Notes: generated by a model from the sequence alone, not told the origin. A DNA stretch of 64,000 nucleotides from Pseudobacter sp. (GCA_017849455.1 JAFIGX010000003.1:248001-312000); one strand, 5' to 3'; positions 5-8,978 are shown, numbered from the stretch's first letter. Translations and numbers: made by a program.

Positions 5-1135
5 ATGCGGAGATTAGATATGCATACGTATATCCATCAGCTTGAAAATTGGCCAAATTTTACCTGGAAACAAGACAAAATCGCTCTCAAATTGGCTAAA
101 GTGCGTCACAATCAAGGGCGATTACTTGCCAGGATGGAAGGCATGGGGTTTCGCTTACAAGCCGAAGCCAACTTGCACACGCTTACGCTGGATGTTTTGA
201 AATCAAGCGAGATCGAGGGCGAAATTTAAAATCCTGACCAGGTACGGTCATCTATCGCAAGAAGGCTCGGTATGGATATAGCTGGCCTTATTCCGGCAGA
301 CCGGCATGTTGAAGGCATTGTAGAAATGATGCTAGACGCGACACAGAACTATAATGATCCCCTAACACATGGCAGATTGTATGGCTGGCATGCGGCTATG
401 TTTCCGACTGGCCGAAGCGGCATGTATAAGATTGTCGTCGGCCATTATCGCAACAATACTCCTGATAACCCGATGCAAGTTGTATCGGGGCCGATGAGAA
501 AGGAGAAGGTGCATTTTCAAGTTCCGGATCCCGATATTCTTCAGGATGAAATGACCCGACTGCTCGGCTGGTTTAATACCGATCATACGCTAGATCCGAT
601 TTTTAAAACCGCTCTTGCGCATTTGTGGTTTGTGACTATTCACCCCTTTGATGACGGCAATGGCCGTATCGCGCGAGCCATTACTGATATGCAATTGTCA
701 AAAGCGGATCAAAGTCAGCAACGTTTTTACAGTATGTCATCGCAAATTAGAGTCGAACGAAAAGCATACTATAAAGTACTCGAAAAAACACAAAAAGGGG
801 CACTCGATGTAACAGTGTGGCTTGACTGGTTTTTAAGCTGCCTTGATCGTGCGTTGGCAAATACAAAAGAAACATTGGGCGGCGTTTTGCAAAAAGCCCG
901 CTTCTGGGAAAAGCATTCCGTAACTGTATTAAACGATCGCCAAAGAGTCATGTTAAATAAATTGCTGGATGGGTTTGAAGGAAAATTGACTTCTTCCAAA
1001 TGGGCGAAAATCACGAAAACCTCGCAGGACACGGCGGGTCGGGATATTAATGATCTTCTCAATAAAGAAATTCTAATAAAGGAACCTGGCGGCGGAAGAA
1101 GTACAAGCTATATCCTCAAAGATATAGCAGACTAA
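5..1135 (+). pseudogene. Fic/DOC family protein, interrupted by an in-frame TAA
   Basis: The gene reads as one frame except for TAA at 227-229. The 74-codon 5' part (5-229) is a DUF4172/Fic N-terminal segment ending in SSEIEGEI, which fits the (S/T)xxxE(G/N) inhibitory helix of Fic proteins. After the stop the same frame continues with NPDQVRSSIARRLG and the Fic core. The catalytic motif HPFDDGNGR is intact (residues 124-132 counting from the ATG at 272), followed by a C-terminal winged-helix-like segment. Active Fic enzymes AMPylate target proteins. The stop separates the inhibitory helix from the catalytic core; the core could restart at ATG 272, preceded by AAGAAGG at 259-265. A single T-to-A change in a TTA Leu codon would explain it. 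Sequencing error is possible. Confidence 0.85.
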
Positions 1136-1578: not shown

Positions 1579-2403
1579 TCACTGTAATATACCTGCTTTT
1601 ACACTTATAAGCCAACTCTTCATATCCTCTACATTCCTGCCCGTCTCTCCAACCATTTGTCTAATAAACGCGCTAGCTTGGTCAAGTTCAATTTGCGCTG
1701 TTAGAATGTTTACCAATCGATCCTTTAAGGCTTGGTTTCCTATGCACATCTTTTTTATTTCACGCCCAATGACGATCGCGGCAATATCTTCTAACTCTCG
1801 TCCAAGCTCCCCGTCAGCGAAAAGATCATGGTGGTTTTCATAAATTAAGTCTGAATGCAGTTCAAAATAGTATTGGAGAATACCTGCAATATCCCTGGCA
1901 TCTTTTTGTCTTTTTTCAGGCCGGTCGTCAAAGGCGATTAATTTAAGTAATACAATTGCAGGAAGGGTAGCTGCCTTGAAGGTGTGTCCAGTATCAAAGG
2001 ATGCATCAGCGGTACCCCCTTGGTAGACTTCAGCAAAACCGTTCACACGGATACTGGTCATACCTTCTCCTGTAAGTTTCACTCCATCATCGATAGCGAT
2101 GGCACCAAATGGCAGCAAATCAACCTGAATACCCTGAGGGCTGATCATGACGAACACATTTTCACACGTGTCTATAAAGCGATGGTCTCTGAGACGATCA
2201 CGTACTTTATCATAGATTTCTTGACTGGCAACAAGTATGGCAAAGTCCACATCCTGGGTTTGACGCGCACGTTTCTTTCCCCGGCTGTACCAATATTCTC
2301 TAGCTATAGCACCTACCATGTAGAAATCTATGTCGAGTTCAGTAAACACTTGCTCCAGCACATCAAGTACCTCTTTTAACTCTTCAAGTCTAATCTGTTT
2401 CAA
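1579..2403 (-). CDS. AbiEii-type nucleotidyltransferase toxin
   Basis: This 274-aa protein looks like the toxin half of a type IV AbiE system. The nucleotidyltransferase fold is suggested by VGAIARE (residues 30-36, the usual GGxA/GS position) and TQDVDFAI (49-56), which supplies the two metal-binding aspartates D51 and D53. A further acidic position comes in QVDLLPFG around residue 115. AbiEii toxins transfer nucleotides, in characterised relatives to tRNA acceptor ends. The start overlaps the upstream antitoxin gene by 14 nt, so the two are translationally coupled. The glycine pair of the canonical motif reads VGA, a mild deviation. Family assignment is likely; the substrate is unknown. Confidence 0.8.
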   Translation of the reverse strand: MKQIRLEELKEVLDVLEQVFTELDIDFYMVGAIAREYWYSRGKKRARQTQDVDFAILVASQEIYDKVRDRLRDHRFIDTCENVFVMISPQGIQVDLLPFGAIAIDDGVKLTGEGMTSIRVNGFAEVYQGGTADASFDTGHTFKAATLPAIVLLKLIAFDDRPEKRQKDARDIAGILQYYFELHSDLIYENHHDLFADGELGRELEDIAAIVIGREIKKMCIGNQALKDRLVNILTAQIELDQASAFIRQMVGETGRNVEDMKSWLISVKAGILQ

Positions 2404-3397
2404 TTTGATTTTTTATGTGTTTATCATAGATGAGATTGGCTGTATCAATACATCTTGGATCGTCTGTTATGAGCAGGTCAGCATAGACCAGCAGTGGTGG
2501 GGTGGTTGCCTGTACTTCGCCATGCTCGTACCAAAATTTATTGAATATGAGAACGTCTCCTTTTTTATCTGGCACTAACCCGATTGTATTAGCTTGTTTA
2601 CCAGTGAAGCCTGGAGTGTATAGCGTCAATACTCTTGCCTGTAAATAATTGGTCATTATTTCTCCAGCAGCTTCGCCACCCCACTCCATATTTATTTCTT
2701 TCACATTAATATCCTGCCAATTGTCCCGCTTTTCGTCTACCCAAATTTGGAAAGCACCTTTGAATAGGTCAGGCTTCAAGGTTTCCCTGTAACCTGCAAT
2801 CCAGCGTTCCAGCAACTCTCTTTTGTTTTTAAGTGCAACTTTTCGCTTGTTGAGTGGAAGTATATATCCTGCTTCAGCTAATCCATCTATTATATATTTG
2901 ATATTCCCTAACGCGATACCTGTTTCTTCCGCTAATTGCCGATATGTTCTTGTAATCGCATCAGGATTGTTCAGCAGATGAAAAACTGCTTTTAATCCTG
3001 TTTTAGTAAAAGCCCTGTTTGTCACAGGTTTTGCTTCCTTAATTGGTTTATTACCATCTAAGAAGATTGTAGCTTGGTTATTGTTGATGAAGATGTTCCC
3101 ATTTGCCTCCAGGTATGCAATTCCCTTCAAACGCAATTGCTCTCTGGCAGGAGCTGCTATTTGTTCCGCCACCACTAAAAGTGGAAATCGAATATCTTGT
3201 GCTTTCGCAACTTGATCTACCTGATAGGCTGTCAGGTGTTTTTTATACTCAACAATGAATTGCATTATCCGGTCTTGAAATACGATTCCATATACCATAT
3301 CCTCAGCCTTCCCATAAGGCTGCCAGGTAATTTTCATACCGGTGCTGTCTTTTAGTACTTTGGCTGCTTGCTCTATTATTTCTGCTTCCTTGTTCAT
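2390..3397 (-). CDS. AbiEi-family type IV antitoxin / transcriptional repressor
   Basis: This 335-aa protein is encoded directly upstream of, and overlapping, the AbiEii toxin. Residues ~1-120 look like the N-terminal domain of the larger AbiEi-type antitoxins, with a pattern resembling a PD-(D/E)xK-like fold (IVEYKKH, LLVVAEQ). Residues ~133-190 form a winged helix (TYRQLAEETGIALGNIKYI). The C-terminal half is the family's effector part. AbiEi antitoxins neutralise the toxin and repress their own operon by binding inverted repeats. The upstream DNA (3407-3520) carries exactly such an array, starting 10 bp from the ATG at 3397. Confidence 0.8.
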   Translation of the reverse strand: MNKEAEIIEQAAKVLKDSTGMKITWQPYGKAEDMVYGIVFQDRIMQFIVEYKKHLTAYQVDQVAKAQDIRFPLLVVAEQIAAPAREQLRLKGIAYLEANGNIFINNNQATIFLDGNKPIKEAKPVTNRAFTKTGLKAVFHLLNNPDAITRTYRQLAEETGIALGNIKYIIDGLAEAGYILPLNKRKVALKNKRELLERWIAGYRETLKPDLFKGAFQIWVDEKRDNWQDINVKEINMEWGGEAAGEIMTNYLQARVLTLYTPGFTGKQANTIGLVPDKKGDVLIFNKFWYEHGEVQATTPPLLVYADLLITDDPRCIDTANLIYDKHIKNQIETD

Positions 3398-3764: not shown

Positions 3765-4032
3765 AAATTGAAAGGCAGCCGATTACGTCCTTTGGTATTT
3801 TTAGGCAATTTTTCACCCCAACGTATTCAACCTGGCCTCATTGTTATTTGTAAGGTCTCCGAAAATCGTCTCTAAAAAATCATTTCTTTGAACCCGTATA
3901 CATTTGAAAATTAGCTTATTACAAATTTTAGAGTCTCTATATTTTATACTTGGGTCTCTAACTTTCCGTTCCGCTTTCATCAATACCAGATATTCGCATA
4001 AAGAAAATCAAGACCAGGTAATTCTATTAACA

Positions 4033-4242
4033 ATGGAGCAAATCCAAAATCCGATGGAGGTCCTTAGGAGTGTTTTTAGCGAAATAAAATTGGGTGAATT
4101 CCGGGACGAAATATCAAAAGCGGTTGAAGTTTGTCTTACCACAACGAATCATCCTTTTTCTAAAGCAACTAGCAGGTATGAACTTTTATCGACATTCAGA
4201 AAAATCCAACTTCTTATAGAGGCAGCTTCATTATTACATTAA
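4033..4242 (+). CDS. Small hypothetical protein
   Basis: I do not recognise this 69-aa product. The open frame extends back to 3904, but the 5' part is low-complexity AT-rich sequence, so I prefer ATG 4033 (MEQIQNPME). The protein looks wholly helical and ends in a leucine/alanine-rich segment (IQLLIEAASLL). The next gene begins 5 bp after its stop, suggesting a two-gene unit within the island. Confidence 0.45.
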   Translation: MEQIQNPMEVLRSVFSEIKLGEFRDEISKAVEVCLTTTNHPFSKATSRYELLSTFRKIQLLIEAASLLH

Positions 4243-4247
4243 GCCAT

Positions 4248-4976
4248 ATGATGACCCTAAAAATAAAAATTGCATGGGTTTGGTTTGGTTTTGCCTATCA
4301 ATGGAATTCAACTTTCCCCAATCATTTACGGTTTCGCTGGTATCATTATAAGTTCTGCAAAGGGAGAGCACTAATATTCTCTAGCCAGGATTATCTTATC
4401 GAATGGGAAAATAGCATTCGGGAAAGACTCAGAAAATATCCGGGACAAATAATTCCTTCTCATGGTCTTAGGGCCATCCTTTATAAAATGGAAACCCAGC
4501 AGATTCAGGAAGTAGTCGCCTTTTTAGAGAGCGAGGATGTGGATCGGGGAATTGAGATATTTATACAAGATTTGAAATCCAATGAAAATAATACCCTGAC
4601 AAATATTGAAAGTCAGAAAACAGAAGATTCATCAAACCAAAAGGGCACTTCAGAGATAATACATACACGAACATATGTTATCGCATTGAGAATTTATTAT
4701 CAGCAGCATAACAGTGAACGTGAGTATAACAAGTTAATTGACTCTCCTGCAAAATATGAAGAAGCCCTCAGTTTCCATTTTCAAGTAAAAAAAATTTCAA
4801 CCAGTCTATATAAGCATATAGATTTTGACAACAAGAAAGAACTGATCAATCCAAAAAACAAAGGTCGGATTCATTTAAAAAAACAATTTGAACAAATCAT
4901 TAATGCCCCAGAAGTTTTTAACAAGGAAATAATTAATAGGGTGAAGGAAATATATGAGAAGCATTTTAAAGGATAG
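4248..4976 (+). CDS. Hypothetical protein (242 aa)
   Basis: I recognise no family. The first ~45 residues are aromatic- and arginine-rich (WVWFGFAYQWN), and the true start may lie later. Residues ~55-110 look helical, the middle is polar and probably disordered (NENNTLTNIESQKTEDSSNQ), and the last ~110 residues are charged and helical. It follows the 69-aa gene with a 5-bp gap. Its last 106 bp overlap an opposing small frame. With both neighbours it forms uncharacterised island cargo between the integrase/tRNA scar and the IS remnant. Confidence 0.5.
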   Translation: MMTLKIKIAWVWFGFAYQWNSTFPNHLRFRWYHYKFCKGRALIFSSQDYLIEWENSIRERLRKYPGQIIPSHGLRAILYKMETQQIQEVVAFLESEDVDRGIEIFIQDLKSNENNTLTNIESQKTEDSSNQKGTSEIIHTRTYVIALRIYYQQHNSEREYNKLIDSPAKYEEALSFHFQVKKISTSLYKHIDFDNKKELINPKNKGRIHLKKQFEQIINAPEVFNKEIINRVKEIYEKHFKG

Positions 4977-5276: not shown

Positions 5277-5504
5277 TCAGTTCATTTTCAGCTGATTTGG
5301 TGTTAGATTATTCAAGGATTCATGCGGTCTTGGATGGTTGTTTGAATACCTGCTCCTGCAAAGCTGCAATGATATTACTGTCGTCTTTTTTGCTACTTAG
5401 CTAAAACTGTGATCGGGGCAATGATAAAATCCTGCGGGCCCTACTTACCGATACTTCCTAGCCTTCTACTGTCTCCTGGCTCAATCGCCCTCTGATGGCA
5501 GGGC
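5277..5504 (-). pseudogene. IS3-family orfB transposase, ends only
   Basis: The start of orfB is visible as RARRILSLPRSQF followed, after a stop, by SSKKDDSNIIAALQEQVF, the typical pre-integrase-core region. It then jumps to the extreme C-terminus, HPRPHESLNNLTPNQLKMN (5277-5342), the classic IS3 tail. Roughly 200 codons carrying the DDE catalytic triad are absent. Confidence 0.7.
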
Positions 5505-5759
5505 TCAGCCTTTTTTTGTGAACAGATCATTGAGGATCTGGCTGTCTAAAGCCAGGTCAGCATACACCTTCTTTAACTTCCCATTCTCTTCCCCCAAATC
5601 TTTCAATCGCTTCGCATCGGAGACTTCTATCCCTCCTTATTTGTTAAATGTCCCTTCTGTAATGCCGTGTTCCCGGCAGATCTCTCTGATCGGAATCCCA
5701 CTCTCTTATTGCTTCAGGATGCAGACAATCTGTGACTCCGTAAATTTTGTCTTCTTCAT
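5505..5759 (-). pseudogene. IS3-family orfA, decayed
   Basis: Translation from ATG 5759 gives MKKTKFTESQIVCILKQ, then a stop, then ESGIPIREICREHGITEGTF, a small deletion with another stop, and the coiled-coil part EVSDAKRLKDLGEENGKLKK ending in FTKKG. This is the helix-turn-helix and leucine-zipper protein of IS3 elements. The A7G run at its end is the usual -1 frameshift site for OrfAB production. Confidence 0.75.
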
Positions 5760-5807
5760 CTTGCGCAGTTAAAAATTGATCATTCCCTAATATTAAACTG
5801 TCTGTTT

Positions 5808-7154
5808 TTAAGGAACACTTACACTACCCCAGGCTTCGACAATTGCAACTTCAAAATCCTTGGCTGCGATCCTCCTTTTCGCGAGAAGGAATAGCTTACG
5901 GATTTTATCCAGAACGGAAATCTTATAGCTTCTGATATGGTTGGTCGGAATTCCAAGCAATATTAGCCATAATGTCAAGTAACCCATGCTGAACCTGATC
6001 CCCTTTGTTTGGAGAATTGAATCTAATCGTCTATTGGCAACTGATTGAAAATTATCTCCGCTTTGAGTAGAGATCAGAATTCTTATTTTTTCGAGAAAGT
6101 CAGTCTCAAAACTTATCAACGATTTTAAAAGTCCCTCTTTAAAACAATGGTTCTCGAGAATATGCGTAATATATTTCTTGTTTTTAATGCGAAGAATTAT
6201 CCCGGAACGGCTTGGGTAAATAGCGAGGATTTCCTTTAACTTCTCCAGATCGGGAATAAGGCCAGGCAACACAACCATATAATGGAGGTAGTTTAAACAA
6301 GTAACAAGTTCTTCATTAAGCATATGAACATCGGTTTTTCTTAAATAAAGCCAACTGTTCCTTCTGCAAATTGTTTTAATCAGGCCTGTAATCTCAGAGT
6401 CTACGTTTGAATTCCAATACTCAAATGAGTGCTCTTTTATTGGGCACGGTTTGTGATTGAGTCGCTTAAACAATGCTTCAGGTTTGAAGTTTTTGTTATT
6501 TTCCTCTTTTATCTCAATGAAGTTTATCGTATAATTATATAAATGTTTTTTGAGGTCATCAGGGAGCTGATCGAATTTCATTTTATCGTACTGCGGCAAT
6601 AAGCTTTGTTGGAGGCTTAATGAAAATTTATTCTTTTTGGAAAACTCAATTAGGCCATCTTCATTTCTAAATTCATGTCCCAGAAATGCTATGATTGCCA
6701 AGAGCCTTTGCTGGCCATCAATAACTTCTGTTATACCATTTTTCCTGATAAAGACATAGATTGGGTGAAGCTTAATTCCCAGTAATATGCTTTCTATCAA
6801 AGAAGATGCCTTGTATTTGCTCATGACTTCCTTTCTTTGATACGCTGGTCTTAAATTAAACTTCCCTCTTTTAATCATGTCAAGGATATCTGTTACTGTA
6901 TATGATGTGGGAAGGGTTTTTGAAAAATATTCTTGTTCCAATCCAGGTTTGAATCGTTCACTTAGATAGCCTCTCATCAATGCTATATGAGAATCCAGGA
7001 ACTCTTTATTACTGTGTAAATAATCTGAAAAAGAAATTTTTAACTGTGAATGAAAAAAATCCGCAATTAGACCATATCTATCCTTTATCCTGTTTACCTG
7101 GTGGTTTCGTTCAAGAAAATATTTGTCTACATGTTTTTCTATGTGATTGATCAA
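5808..7154 (-). CDS. DUF262 (ParB-like nuclease fold) protein, 3' end overrun by IS
   Basis: This 448-aa protein has the DUF262 signature: RPAYQRKEV (residues 102-110) and DGQQRLLAI (146-154). The DGQQR motif is shared with GmrSD-, SspE- and BrxU-type defence enzymes, where the domain binds or hydrolyses nucleotides. No DUF1524/HNH nuclease domain is visible. An ~80-residue N-terminal extension precedes the domain. The last four codons (VSVP) and the stop are supplied by the right end of the IS3 remnant, so the natural C-terminus is probably lost. It is the third gene of an operon, 27 bp after the shorter DUF262 gene. Confidence 0.8.
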   Translation of the reverse strand: MINHIEKHVDKYFLERNHQVNRIKDRYGLIADFFHSQLKISFSDYLHSNKEFLDSHIALMRGYLSERFKPGLEQEYFSKTLPTSYTVTDILDMIKRGKFNLRPAYQRKEVMSKYKASSLIESILLGIKLHPIYVFIRKNGITEVIDGQQRLLAIIAFLGHEFRNEDGLIEFSKKNKFSLSLQQSLLPQYDKMKFDQLPDDLKKHLYNYTINFIEIKEENNKNFKPEALFKRLNHKPCPIKEHSFEYWNSNVDSEITGLIKTICRRNSWLYLRKTDVHMLNEELVTCLNYLHYMVVLPGLIPDLEKLKEILAIYPSRSGIILRIKNKKYITHILENHCFKEGLLKSLISFETDFLEKIRILISTQSGDNFQSVANRRLDSILQTKGIRFSMGYLTLWLILLGIPTNHIRSYKISVLDKIRKLFLLAKRRIAAKDFEVAIVEAWGSVSVP

Positions 7155-7181
7155 CCTTGTCTTAAAAACGGGATTTGTAAT

Positions 7182-8123
7182 TTAGTCAATTGAAACGTTC
7201 TCTTTTTCGCAGACTGATATTGCCCAGAAAATGCACTCATAAACAAGCCCAGAGGTGGTGATTGATCGTTTGTCGAGATCTGATTTCAAGTCGGCCAGAA
7301 AATCAACTTTCCTCATGAAAGCCCTGAAGATATTATCTATACTTTCTTTATTATCATTCTTGGCAGCAGCGTAGGAAAGATAATCATAGTATCGATTCAC
7401 AATATCTTCCTTTTCGGATGCGAATCTATTAATCGGAATGTTTTGCAAGACCAGCAACTGTCGAATGTGCTGCATCATCTTTTCAATGTTCTTTTTCCTA
7501 TGGTCGAAAATACTTGAAACCTGATCATATATCTTCGCATCCTTTTTGAACTTCATTTTAAAATAAATATCTATTTCATCCTGAAAATATTGAGCTTTTT
7601 GAATATCCTCCTTCTTTAATGGAGTCATTCCCAGATTATGCCTTTTGAAAATTTCTCTCTTTACCAACTCCTCTGAATACCCATCCATATCAGTTTTTGG
7701 TTTAATTACAATAAAACGCAGAATGGTATTTTGAATACGCTCTTGTAAACTCCCATCTAAGTCTGAGAATTTCTTTCCAACAAGATTCCAAAGCTCTTCT
7801 AATCCCTGTGCTTTCAATGCAAACTGGCCATTTAGGAACCTTACGATTGTTTCAGCTCGTTGCTTACCATCAATAACTTCCCAGGTTCCGTCTTTTTCAT
7901 ATATCACAAATGGAGGAATTTCGCCGTGAAGTAATATAGATTCAATAAAGTATGTCGCTTTAACAACGGACCATACATAATTCCGCTGATAAGGAGGGTT
8001 GTAGTTTAAGGTATATGAGCTTTTATTGATTAATTGAAAGACTGAGCGGAGAGATTTCAAGATGTCAGTAATGGTAATGTTATTGAACTTATCTCTGATT
8101 TCTGATTTTTTGTTCATTGACAA
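7182..8123 (-). CDS. DUF262 (ParB-like nuclease fold) protein
   Basis: This 313-aa protein carries PPYQRNYVW (43-51) and DGKQR (85-89), the two hallmark motifs of DUF262. A central helical region follows (KREIFKRHNLGMTPLKKEDI is the usual 'N-x-x-x-x-P-L' segment). There is no HNH nuclease. It sits between a sigma-70-like gene (21 bp upstream) and a second, larger DUF262 gene (27 bp downstream), so the three are probably one transcript. DUF262 proteins commonly occur in anti-phage and DNA-modification islands. The role here is inferred only. Confidence 0.8.
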   Translation of the reverse strand: MSMNKKSEIRDKFNNITITDILKSLRSVFQLINKSSYTLNYNPPYQRNYVWSVVKATYFIESILLHGEIPPFVIYEKDGTWEVIDGKQRAETIVRFLNGQFALKAQGLEELWNLVGKKFSDLDGSLQERIQNTILRFIVIKPKTDMDGYSEELVKREIFKRHNLGMTPLKKEDIQKAQYFQDEIDIYFKMKFKKDAKIYDQVSSIFDHRKKNIEKMMQHIRQLLVLQNIPINRFASEKEDIVNRYYDYLSYAAAKNDNKESIDNIFRAFMRKVDFLADLKSDLDKRSITTSGLVYECIFWAISVCEKENVSID

Positions 8124-8144
8124 TAGTTGATGAGTTGTTAAAGG

Positions 8145-8978
8145 TTATTTCTTTCTTATTCTGTTGAGTATGTTCATAGCTGAATAGTGCAACTTTAAAA
8201 GCTCAAAGGGGGCGAGACCAAGTTCCTCAGAAATGAGTCCGAAAGAAAGCTTGTTCTTGTAGTAAAGTGTGCAAAACTGGGCCTGCTGCTTATTCAGGTA
8301 GGCTTCATAATTAGCTACAGGTATCGATGCTGTCCTTTGACTCGCTTGATGGGCCTTATGAAGGGTTGGCAAGATAAGTTTCAAAAGTCTATTACTCTTC
8401 CTCATTTCCCAAGTAACTTTTTGGCAGGATACTCCAAGATGTTTGGAAATTTTTTGATGGCTTAGCCCTTTATGGTGTAATTCCAGAAAGTTTTTTCGGG
8501 TTGCAGGTAAATAGGGCATTGCATTTTCAAGAAGTTTTAATAACTCTTTTGTGGAACCCTTATCAACCCGATCAGCAAACTCAGTTTCCGGATCATGACC
8601 GTATCTTGAGATGTGTTCGGTATAGTAAAAATCCATAAGTAATGAATTCTTACGCCAATTGTTTACCCGATATCGGGAGCACCGCCGTTTAATGAATAAT
8701 TTGATGCTTGAACAGAAATGATTCAAGTTTTCTATCCTTTCCCGTCTTTCCCAGGCAAAAAGAAACGCATCCTGAACTATGCAATCAATTTCAAAATTAT
8801 CTTTAAGCAGGTGAGAAGCAAAGGAAAAAGTGGATCTATACAGTAGTCTATGTAGATAGGCAAGACCCTTTTCGTTGCCTGAAATGAATAACTGGAAATG
8901 AACAAAGTCTTCAGACGACGGGATCTGAAACCGGTGGATCATGGGGTTTTCAAAACGCTGAATTGACATACGTTTCAC
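8145..8978 (-). CDS. Sigma-70-like (ECF) protein with extra C-terminal HTH
   Basis: In this 277-aa protein, residues ~36-105 resemble sigma region 2 (VQDAFLFAWERRERIENL is the core-binding/-10 helix). Residues ~155-200 resemble region 4 (LPATRKNFLELHHKGLSHQK, then ISKHLGVSCQKV). Ordinary ECF factors end there at ~190 aa. This one has ~75 more residues with a second helix-turn-helix-like segment (SFGLISEELGLAPFELLKLH, 245-264). No anti-sigma gene is adjacent; instead it heads an operon with two DUF262 genes. It may direct transcription of that operon or act as a DNA-binding subunit. The sigma-like identity is likely, the function unknown. Confidence 0.65.
   Translation of the reverse strand: MKRMSIQRFENPMIHRFQIPSSEDFVHFQLFISGNEKGLAYLHRLLYRSTFSFASHLLKDNFEIDCIVQDAFLFAWERRERIENLNHFCSSIKLFIKRRCSRYRVNNWRKNSLLMDFYYTEHISRYGHDPETEFADRVDKGSTKELLKLLENAMPYLPATRKNFLELHHKGLSHQKISKHLGVSCQKVTWEMRKSNRLLKLILPTLHKAHQASQRTASIPVANYEAYLNKQQAQFCTLYYKNKLSFGLISEELGLAPFELLKLHYSAMNILNRIRKK

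Follow-up and report, generated by a model that had tools for sequence, protein, structure and literature searches.

A sigma factor of the RNA-guided-transcription type is paired with a nuclease-less double-DUF262 protein in three Bacteroidota genomes

Results

A sigma gene and a split double-DUF262 gene form one operon

Three closely spaced minus-strand ORFs, separated by gaps of 21 and 27 bp, lie near the start of the window, by which we mean the whole stretch of 64,000 nucleotides analysed here (Table 1). The one transcribed first encodes a long sigma factor and the other two carry DUF262 domains. The GC content of the operon is 35-38%, compared with about 49% in most of the window, and AbiEi/AbiEii-type genes are located nearby, as expected from the AT-rich island beside an AbiE module described in an earlier note on this DNA. 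Just downstream of the operon we observed an IS3-type transposase orfA-like remnant with stops. At the edge of the window, 7 kb from the DUF262 gene, a Fic-type gene is interrupted by one in-frame TAA in the context EGEI*NPDQVRSS, the same kind of lesion as in the DUF262 gene. Two further ORFs of 112 and 242 aa in an AT-rich stretch gave no significant Pfam match.

Table 1 Features of the window
Feature	Position	Strand	Evidence
Long sigma factor, RpoE homologue of the RNA-guided transcription complex	8145..8978	-	Match to 9n9q_C and membership of the long-sigma clade
Sigma C-terminal extension with second HTH	8148..8366	-	Residues about 205-277; common to dCas12f-linked sigmas
Double-DUF262, first half: GmrSD_N, PPYQR and IDGKQR motifs	7182..8123	-	Pfam GmrSD_N, E 9e-22
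In-frame TAA in linker, splitting the gene	7182..7184	-	Read-through translation and alignment to unsplit homologues
Double-DUF262, second half: GmrSD_N, RPAYQR and IDGQQR motifs; no HNH or other tail	5808..7154	-	Pfam GmrSD_N, E 1e-16
Fic-type gene	5..1135	+	Fic domain, E 1.5e-15
In-frame TAA in Fic-type gene	227..229	+	
AbiEi/AbiEii-type genes	1579..3397		
Two ORFs in AT-rich stretch	3904..4976	+	
IS3-type transposase orfA-like remnant	about 5500..5775	-	

Both DUF262 ORFs matched GmrSD_N above the curated cut-off, with nothing else of note in Pfam. The IDGKQR/IDGQQR and PYQR motifs are kept, and no DUF1524/HNH domain was detected by Pfam in either half or in the homologous proteins of Pseudoflavitalea sp. 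G-6-1-2 (G002) and G729, which bears out the earlier assignment of both ORFs to DUF262 without that nuclease domain. Compared with the fused G002 protein (773 aa), the first half shares 47% identity with the N-terminal half and the second 44% with the C-terminal half; the G729 protein is about 764-786 aa long. Read-through translation revealed that the two window ORFs occupy one continuous frame with one TAA between them, the TTG start of ORF 5808-7154 being nominal, and at the junction NVSID*ITNPVFKTRLINH of the window aligns opposite GIAFGRINNKTFKTRLINH of G729. Since the frame is continuous and the double-DUF262 gene is unsplit in all 11 other full-length homologues (G002, G729 and nine further Bacteroidota), the two ORFs represent one gene with an in-frame stop rather than two ancestral genes. 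Three independent genes, as the earlier note had counted them, are thereby ruled out, although their strand, order and spacing stand.

Apart from this TAA, no other stop or frameshift was found over the 2.3 kb of the gene. Of the residues that do not vary among the other 11 proteins, 42 of 43 in the first half and 50 of 53 in the second are conserved in the window, a share as high as in the intact homologues. The halves may be made separately, or the stop may be a recent mutation or a sequencing error, and the window copy may be weakened by it. A structure model of the DUF262 protein had a mean pLDDT of 48 and was left out of the analysis.

The sigma factor carries a domain shared with dCas12f-linked sigmas

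The sigma gene encodes 277 aa from a GTG at 8978, with an ATG at 8969 as an alternative start. Regions 2 and 4 were recognised by NCBIfam and Pfam models, which place the protein loosely among ECF factors (best model 53.6 bits against a cut-off of 126.4). In a search of all PDB sequences its single match was 9n9q_C, annotated as 'RpoE' (E 2.3e-18, residues 27-262), and the matched region takes in the C-terminal second HTH; ordinary ECFs in the PDB were not reached by phmmer at E 0.1. The structure model of the sigma factor was modest (pLDDT 63) and was used solely for ranking fold matches as supporting evidence. Foldseek indeed ranked 9n9q_C first (E 3e-9, next match 1.6e-3), and the title of this top chain is 'Cryo-EM structure of the RNA-guided transcription complex'.

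The last 73 residues matched the same region of nine dCas12f-linked sigmas (hhalign probability 95%, E 2e-8), and the group-versus-group comparison of the extension gave a probability of 96% and E 2e-9. As a control, the region-4 HTH of the window sigma was compared with the same nine-sigma extension profile and reached a probability of 1.9% and E 0.025, so the extension is a specific shared domain and not just any HTH. The earlier description of regions 2 and 4 followed by a second HTH was thus confirmed. No anti-sigma gene was seen beside the sigma gene among its neighbouring ORFs. On the evidence of its sequence, the window sigma is not an ordinary ECF factor but belongs to a rare type known from RNA-guided transcription.

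Long sigmas form a small clade with two kinds of partner

We searched 396 genomes of the family and then 395 of the phylum with a long-sigma profile, scoring at most six candidates per genome; the two samples overlap and comprise about 700 Bacteroidota in all. In the family sample, nine matches span nearly the whole long-sigma model, and in the remaining matches the uninterrupted part ends before the extension. Five more long sigmas came from the phylum sample, bringing the total found to 14. In the tree these sigmas stand apart from 20 ordinary ECFs with support of 85/90, which, together with the extra C-terminal domain, speaks against the ordinary ECF factor that the earlier note had considered as the outcome fatal to its proposal.

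Reading of the neighbours of all 14 long sigmas revealed dCas12f in 11 cases and a tail-less double-DUF262 gene in three, with no third partner type among the 14. dCas12f directly follows the sigma gene in G040, G020, G802, G542, G529, G197, G421, G469, G189 and G449, and also in G504, where the end of the contig truncates it. In G040, the dCas12f-like protein encoded beside the sigma matched 9n9c, 'Nuclease-deactivated Cas12f', with E 2e-117. One dCas12f-linked sigma (G189, L118 7343-8159) is split into two overlapping frames, one with the region 2/4 part and the other with the extension part, perhaps by a frameshift.

A tail-less double-DUF262 gene follows the sigma gene in the window genome (G000), in G002 and in G729, with the same order and strand in G002, of the same genus, and in G729, of another genus. 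The sigma factor is thus no odd orphan, and the pair is not confined to a single genome. The three DUF262-linked sigmas are only about 24-33% identical to one another, and the recurrence of the arrangement despite this divergence is more than would be expected by chance. What recurs, however, is a system of two components, a sigma factor and one double-DUF262 protein, instead of the three genes proposed earlier. The long-sigma tree does not settle which of the two types, DUF262 or dCas12f, is the older.

A narrow-pattern scan of genome contigs found only Pseudoflavitalea sp. G-6-1-2, and two same-genus searches yielded no further members beyond those known and a remnant in G698. This decayed double-DUF262 remnant (L134 7081-7443) is 62% identical to the protein of G729, a genome of the same genus, and adjoins a flanking gene also present in G729, implying that the system was lost in one lineage. 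A mobile-element origin was considered and rejected: no relative occurred in viral contigs, no sigma relative was found on plasmids, and no phage or plasmid record covered 80% of the DUF262 protein.

Guide RNA and dCas12f accompany one branch and not the other

A guide-RNA scaffold shortly after dCas12f is common to the 10 dCas12f loci whose downstream flank is complete (L043 8260-8329, L044 7614-7690, L102 6644-6714, L115 9644-9711 and six more), with the variable guide coming after the scaffold. The scaffold helices covary, with 19 cells with double changes compared with 6.8 in shuffles, and covariance model R1 recovered 10 of 10 complete dCas12f loci at 63-83 bits. The same model found no match in the window or in the G002 and G729 loci (L042 and L106). 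In whole-genome searches it gave none in G000 and G002, and the best score in G729, 17.7 bits, was at chance level. Likewise, no dCas12f adjoins the sigma gene in the three DUF262-type loci, and a 10-sequence dCas12f profile had no match in G000, G002 or G729. On the strength of these protein-profile and covariance-model searches of the genomes, we rejected a hidden dCas12f or guide RNA acting in trans. We also looked for a conserved non-coding RNA belonging to the DUF262 loci themselves and found no sequence common to the three loci with 900 bp flanks.

Double-DUF262 relatives without the sigma carry a tail or adjoin a PIN_8 gene

The long sigma gene adjoins none of nine double-DUF262 relatives of the HNH, TaqI_C-like or PIN_8 type. 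An HNH tail was identified on the proteins of G363, G129, G371 and G709 by Pfam and on that of G306 by alignment. At its N-terminus, the G129 protein (L068 6435-9746) also has three DUF4379 repeats of the treble-clef zinc-finger type. In G746 the protein ends in about 270 aa with a weak resemblance to TaqI_C (E 0.0017), and the G649 and G576 proteins have corresponding tails; loci with this C-terminal tail of about 270 aa are L122 1501-4578, L123 676-3777 and L124 676-3777. The G291 protein is tail-less, but its end overlaps with a gene for a PIN_8 nuclease.

Sigma-linked and other double-DUF262 proteins have two GmrSD_N domains and a linker in common and are 30-40% identical over their full length. 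Alignment revealed that the sigma-linked proteins stop where the tail of the relatives begins. In the DUF262 tree the three sigma-linked proteins form one clade (100/100), the HNH group forms another (100/99), and the three TaqI_C-like proteins group with G291. The lack of a tail coincides with the presence of the sigma gene, suggesting that the recognition module is constant and the output module varies.

The best PADLOC matches of both DUF262 halves were PD-T4-2_A and NsnA, which we take to be the DUF262 protein of Menshen. NsnA and PD-T4-2_A were also the best matches of the HNH- and TaqI_C-tailed relatives, so that these hits reflect the shared domain. Among the neighbouring ORFs at 1-16 kb we found no OLD/TOPRIM gene of the kind partnering in Menshen/PD-T4-2, and those of the neighbouring ORFs that were searched with PADLOC gave no NsnB, NsnC or PD-T4-2 partner match. 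The window thus differs from Menshen and PD-T4-2 in having a sigma gene in place of their partner genes.

Discussion

Here a sigma factor and a double-DUF262 protein are paired in one operon. The pair is carried by three genomes among about 700 sampled; both families are known, and their pairing appears to be new. To our knowledge, no sigma-DUF262 system has been described, and text searches of the literature, whose coverage excludes most subscription papers and all preprints, found no such description. The closest known counterpart is a system described in 2025, in which dCas12f, a guide RNA and sigmaE reportedly bring RNA polymerase to guide-specified sites, and for which we drew here on PDB titles. 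The sigma factor of this dCas12f-sigmaE system (PDB 9n9c, 9n9m, 9n9o, 9n9q) is of the same clade and has the same extension as that of the window, and both systems are two-gene operons with the sigma gene followed by a partner without an active nuclease. In the window, however, the partner is a double DUF262 and not dCas12f, in a genome without dCas12f and scaffold. Ordinary Bacteroidota ECF sigmas have regions 2 and 4, as does the window sigma, which differs from them in its extra C-terminal domain, its separate clade and a DUF262 neighbour instead of an anti-sigma.

The DUF262 domain has a ParB/Srx fold and contains a DGQQR motif that binds NTP (PMC10952713, PMC4619093). That of SspE detects phosphorothioate marks and switches the nuclease domain through hydrolysis; in Menshen and Dazbog, DUF262 occurs without DUF1524, and the Dazbog one is believed to recognise methylated DNA (PMC10952713, PMC4619093). 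GmrSD, BrxU and SspE have the DGQQR-type motif, as in the window, but combine one DUF262 with a DUF1524 nuclease domain, whereas the window has two DUF262 domains and no DUF1524 (PMC4619093, PMC10952713). That DUF262 is a defence-linked NTPase domain, as the earlier note had stated, agrees with this literature (PMC10952713) and with the PADLOC matches at the level of the domain.

Given that sigmas of this clade are otherwise delivered by a nuclease-dead partner, and given the properties of DUF262, it is simplest to see the nuclease-less DUF262 protein as the DNA-recognising partner. That it has in this way taken the place of dCas12f and its guide RNA, delivering the sigma factor and RNA polymerase, is our best explanation, which we hold to be about as likely as not. 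The operon would then encode a sigma factor together with a partner dedicated to recognising DNA. In the likeliest mechanism, the DUF262 protein would pick its site by NTP-dependent recognition of DNA, perhaps of modified DNA, and would bind the sigma factor, perhaps via the C-terminal extension; once bound, it would deliver RNA polymerase, so that transcription would be directed by site or by DNA modification, with no RNA guide. More tentatively, the double-DUF262 NTPase would recognise a DNA sequence or modification and physically recruit the sigma factor and polymerase, with the extension as a docking module for either partner. The extension may serve as the docking site for the partner; this, like the contact between sigma and DUF262, the recognition of DNA, the recruitment of polymerase and the switching on of genes, is inferred. 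For the candidate defence or DNA-processing role envisaged at the outset, the decisive comparison is that with dCas12f-sigma RNA-guided transcription, and it favours directed transcription over DNA cleavage.

The main rival to guided transcription, which fits the same facts, is that the DUF262 protein acts as a cytoplasmic anti-sigma-like sensor: it would hold the sigma factor inactive, or activate it, when a signal arises, for instance modified phage DNA or nucleotides, and the freed sigma would then act at its own promoters elsewhere. Indeed, in SspE the DUF262 responds to modified DNA and uses NTP hydrolysis to switch its effector (PMC10952713), no other anti-sigma gene adjoins the sigma gene, and lineages of double-DUF262 proteins have swapped effectors. 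However, the other sigmas of this clade have a DNA-targeting partner and not an anti-sigma, and the window sigma has its extension in common with the dCas12f-linked sigmas, so that we consider such a sensor rather unlikely. It is improbable that DUF262 alone restricts phage while the sigma factor does no more than drive or help to regulate the operon that encodes it. In favour of this reading, DUF262 often occurs in defence systems (PMC10952713), the window has AbiE genes nearby, and the G002 copy of the pair has a GmrSD-type gene in its vicinity; nevertheless, the nuclease or specificity tail of the other tailed double-DUF262 proteins is missing from the sigma-linked ones, by loss or from the start, which leaves the sigma factor as the sole evident effector, and such sigmas are otherwise committed to dCas12f.

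A different question is whether the window copy is a decaying, functionless gene pair, whatever the intact systems do. The in-frame TAA, the same kind of lesion in the nearby Fic-type gene, the IS3-type remnant adjoining the operon and the related DUF262 gene remnant in G698 would fit such decay. Yet we give it little credence, because 92 of 96 invariant residues are kept, the 2.3 kb are free of any further stop or frameshift, the sigma gene is undamaged, and the stop sits in the linker, so that each half could be produced on its own and the two could work together.

Guided transcription by the sigma-DUF262 pair would be a protein-guided counterpart of the RNA-guided transcription of dCas12f, and our data suggest such a second, RNA-free way to steer RNA polymerase. 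If this is true, the sigma factor of RNA-guided transcription is not bound to CRISPR-like proteins but is an exchangeable output module for different DNA-recognition devices, and DUF262, a common defence domain so far known for nuclease switching, is tied to transcription. It would also become testable whether bacteria are able to express genes in response to DNA that they recognise as foreign or modified. The DUF262 and dCas12f types offer a natural comparison for locating the part of the sigma factor that contacts the partner.

Among the dCas12f loci, L043 (10934-17802) and the corresponding stretch of L102 contain a cluster of SIR2-like, HerA-like and KAP-NTPase genes that is divergent from the dCas12f-sigma operon. 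The upstream DNA common to these two loci holds a repeat of about 57 bp, with copies 350 bp apart, which might be the target of the guide.
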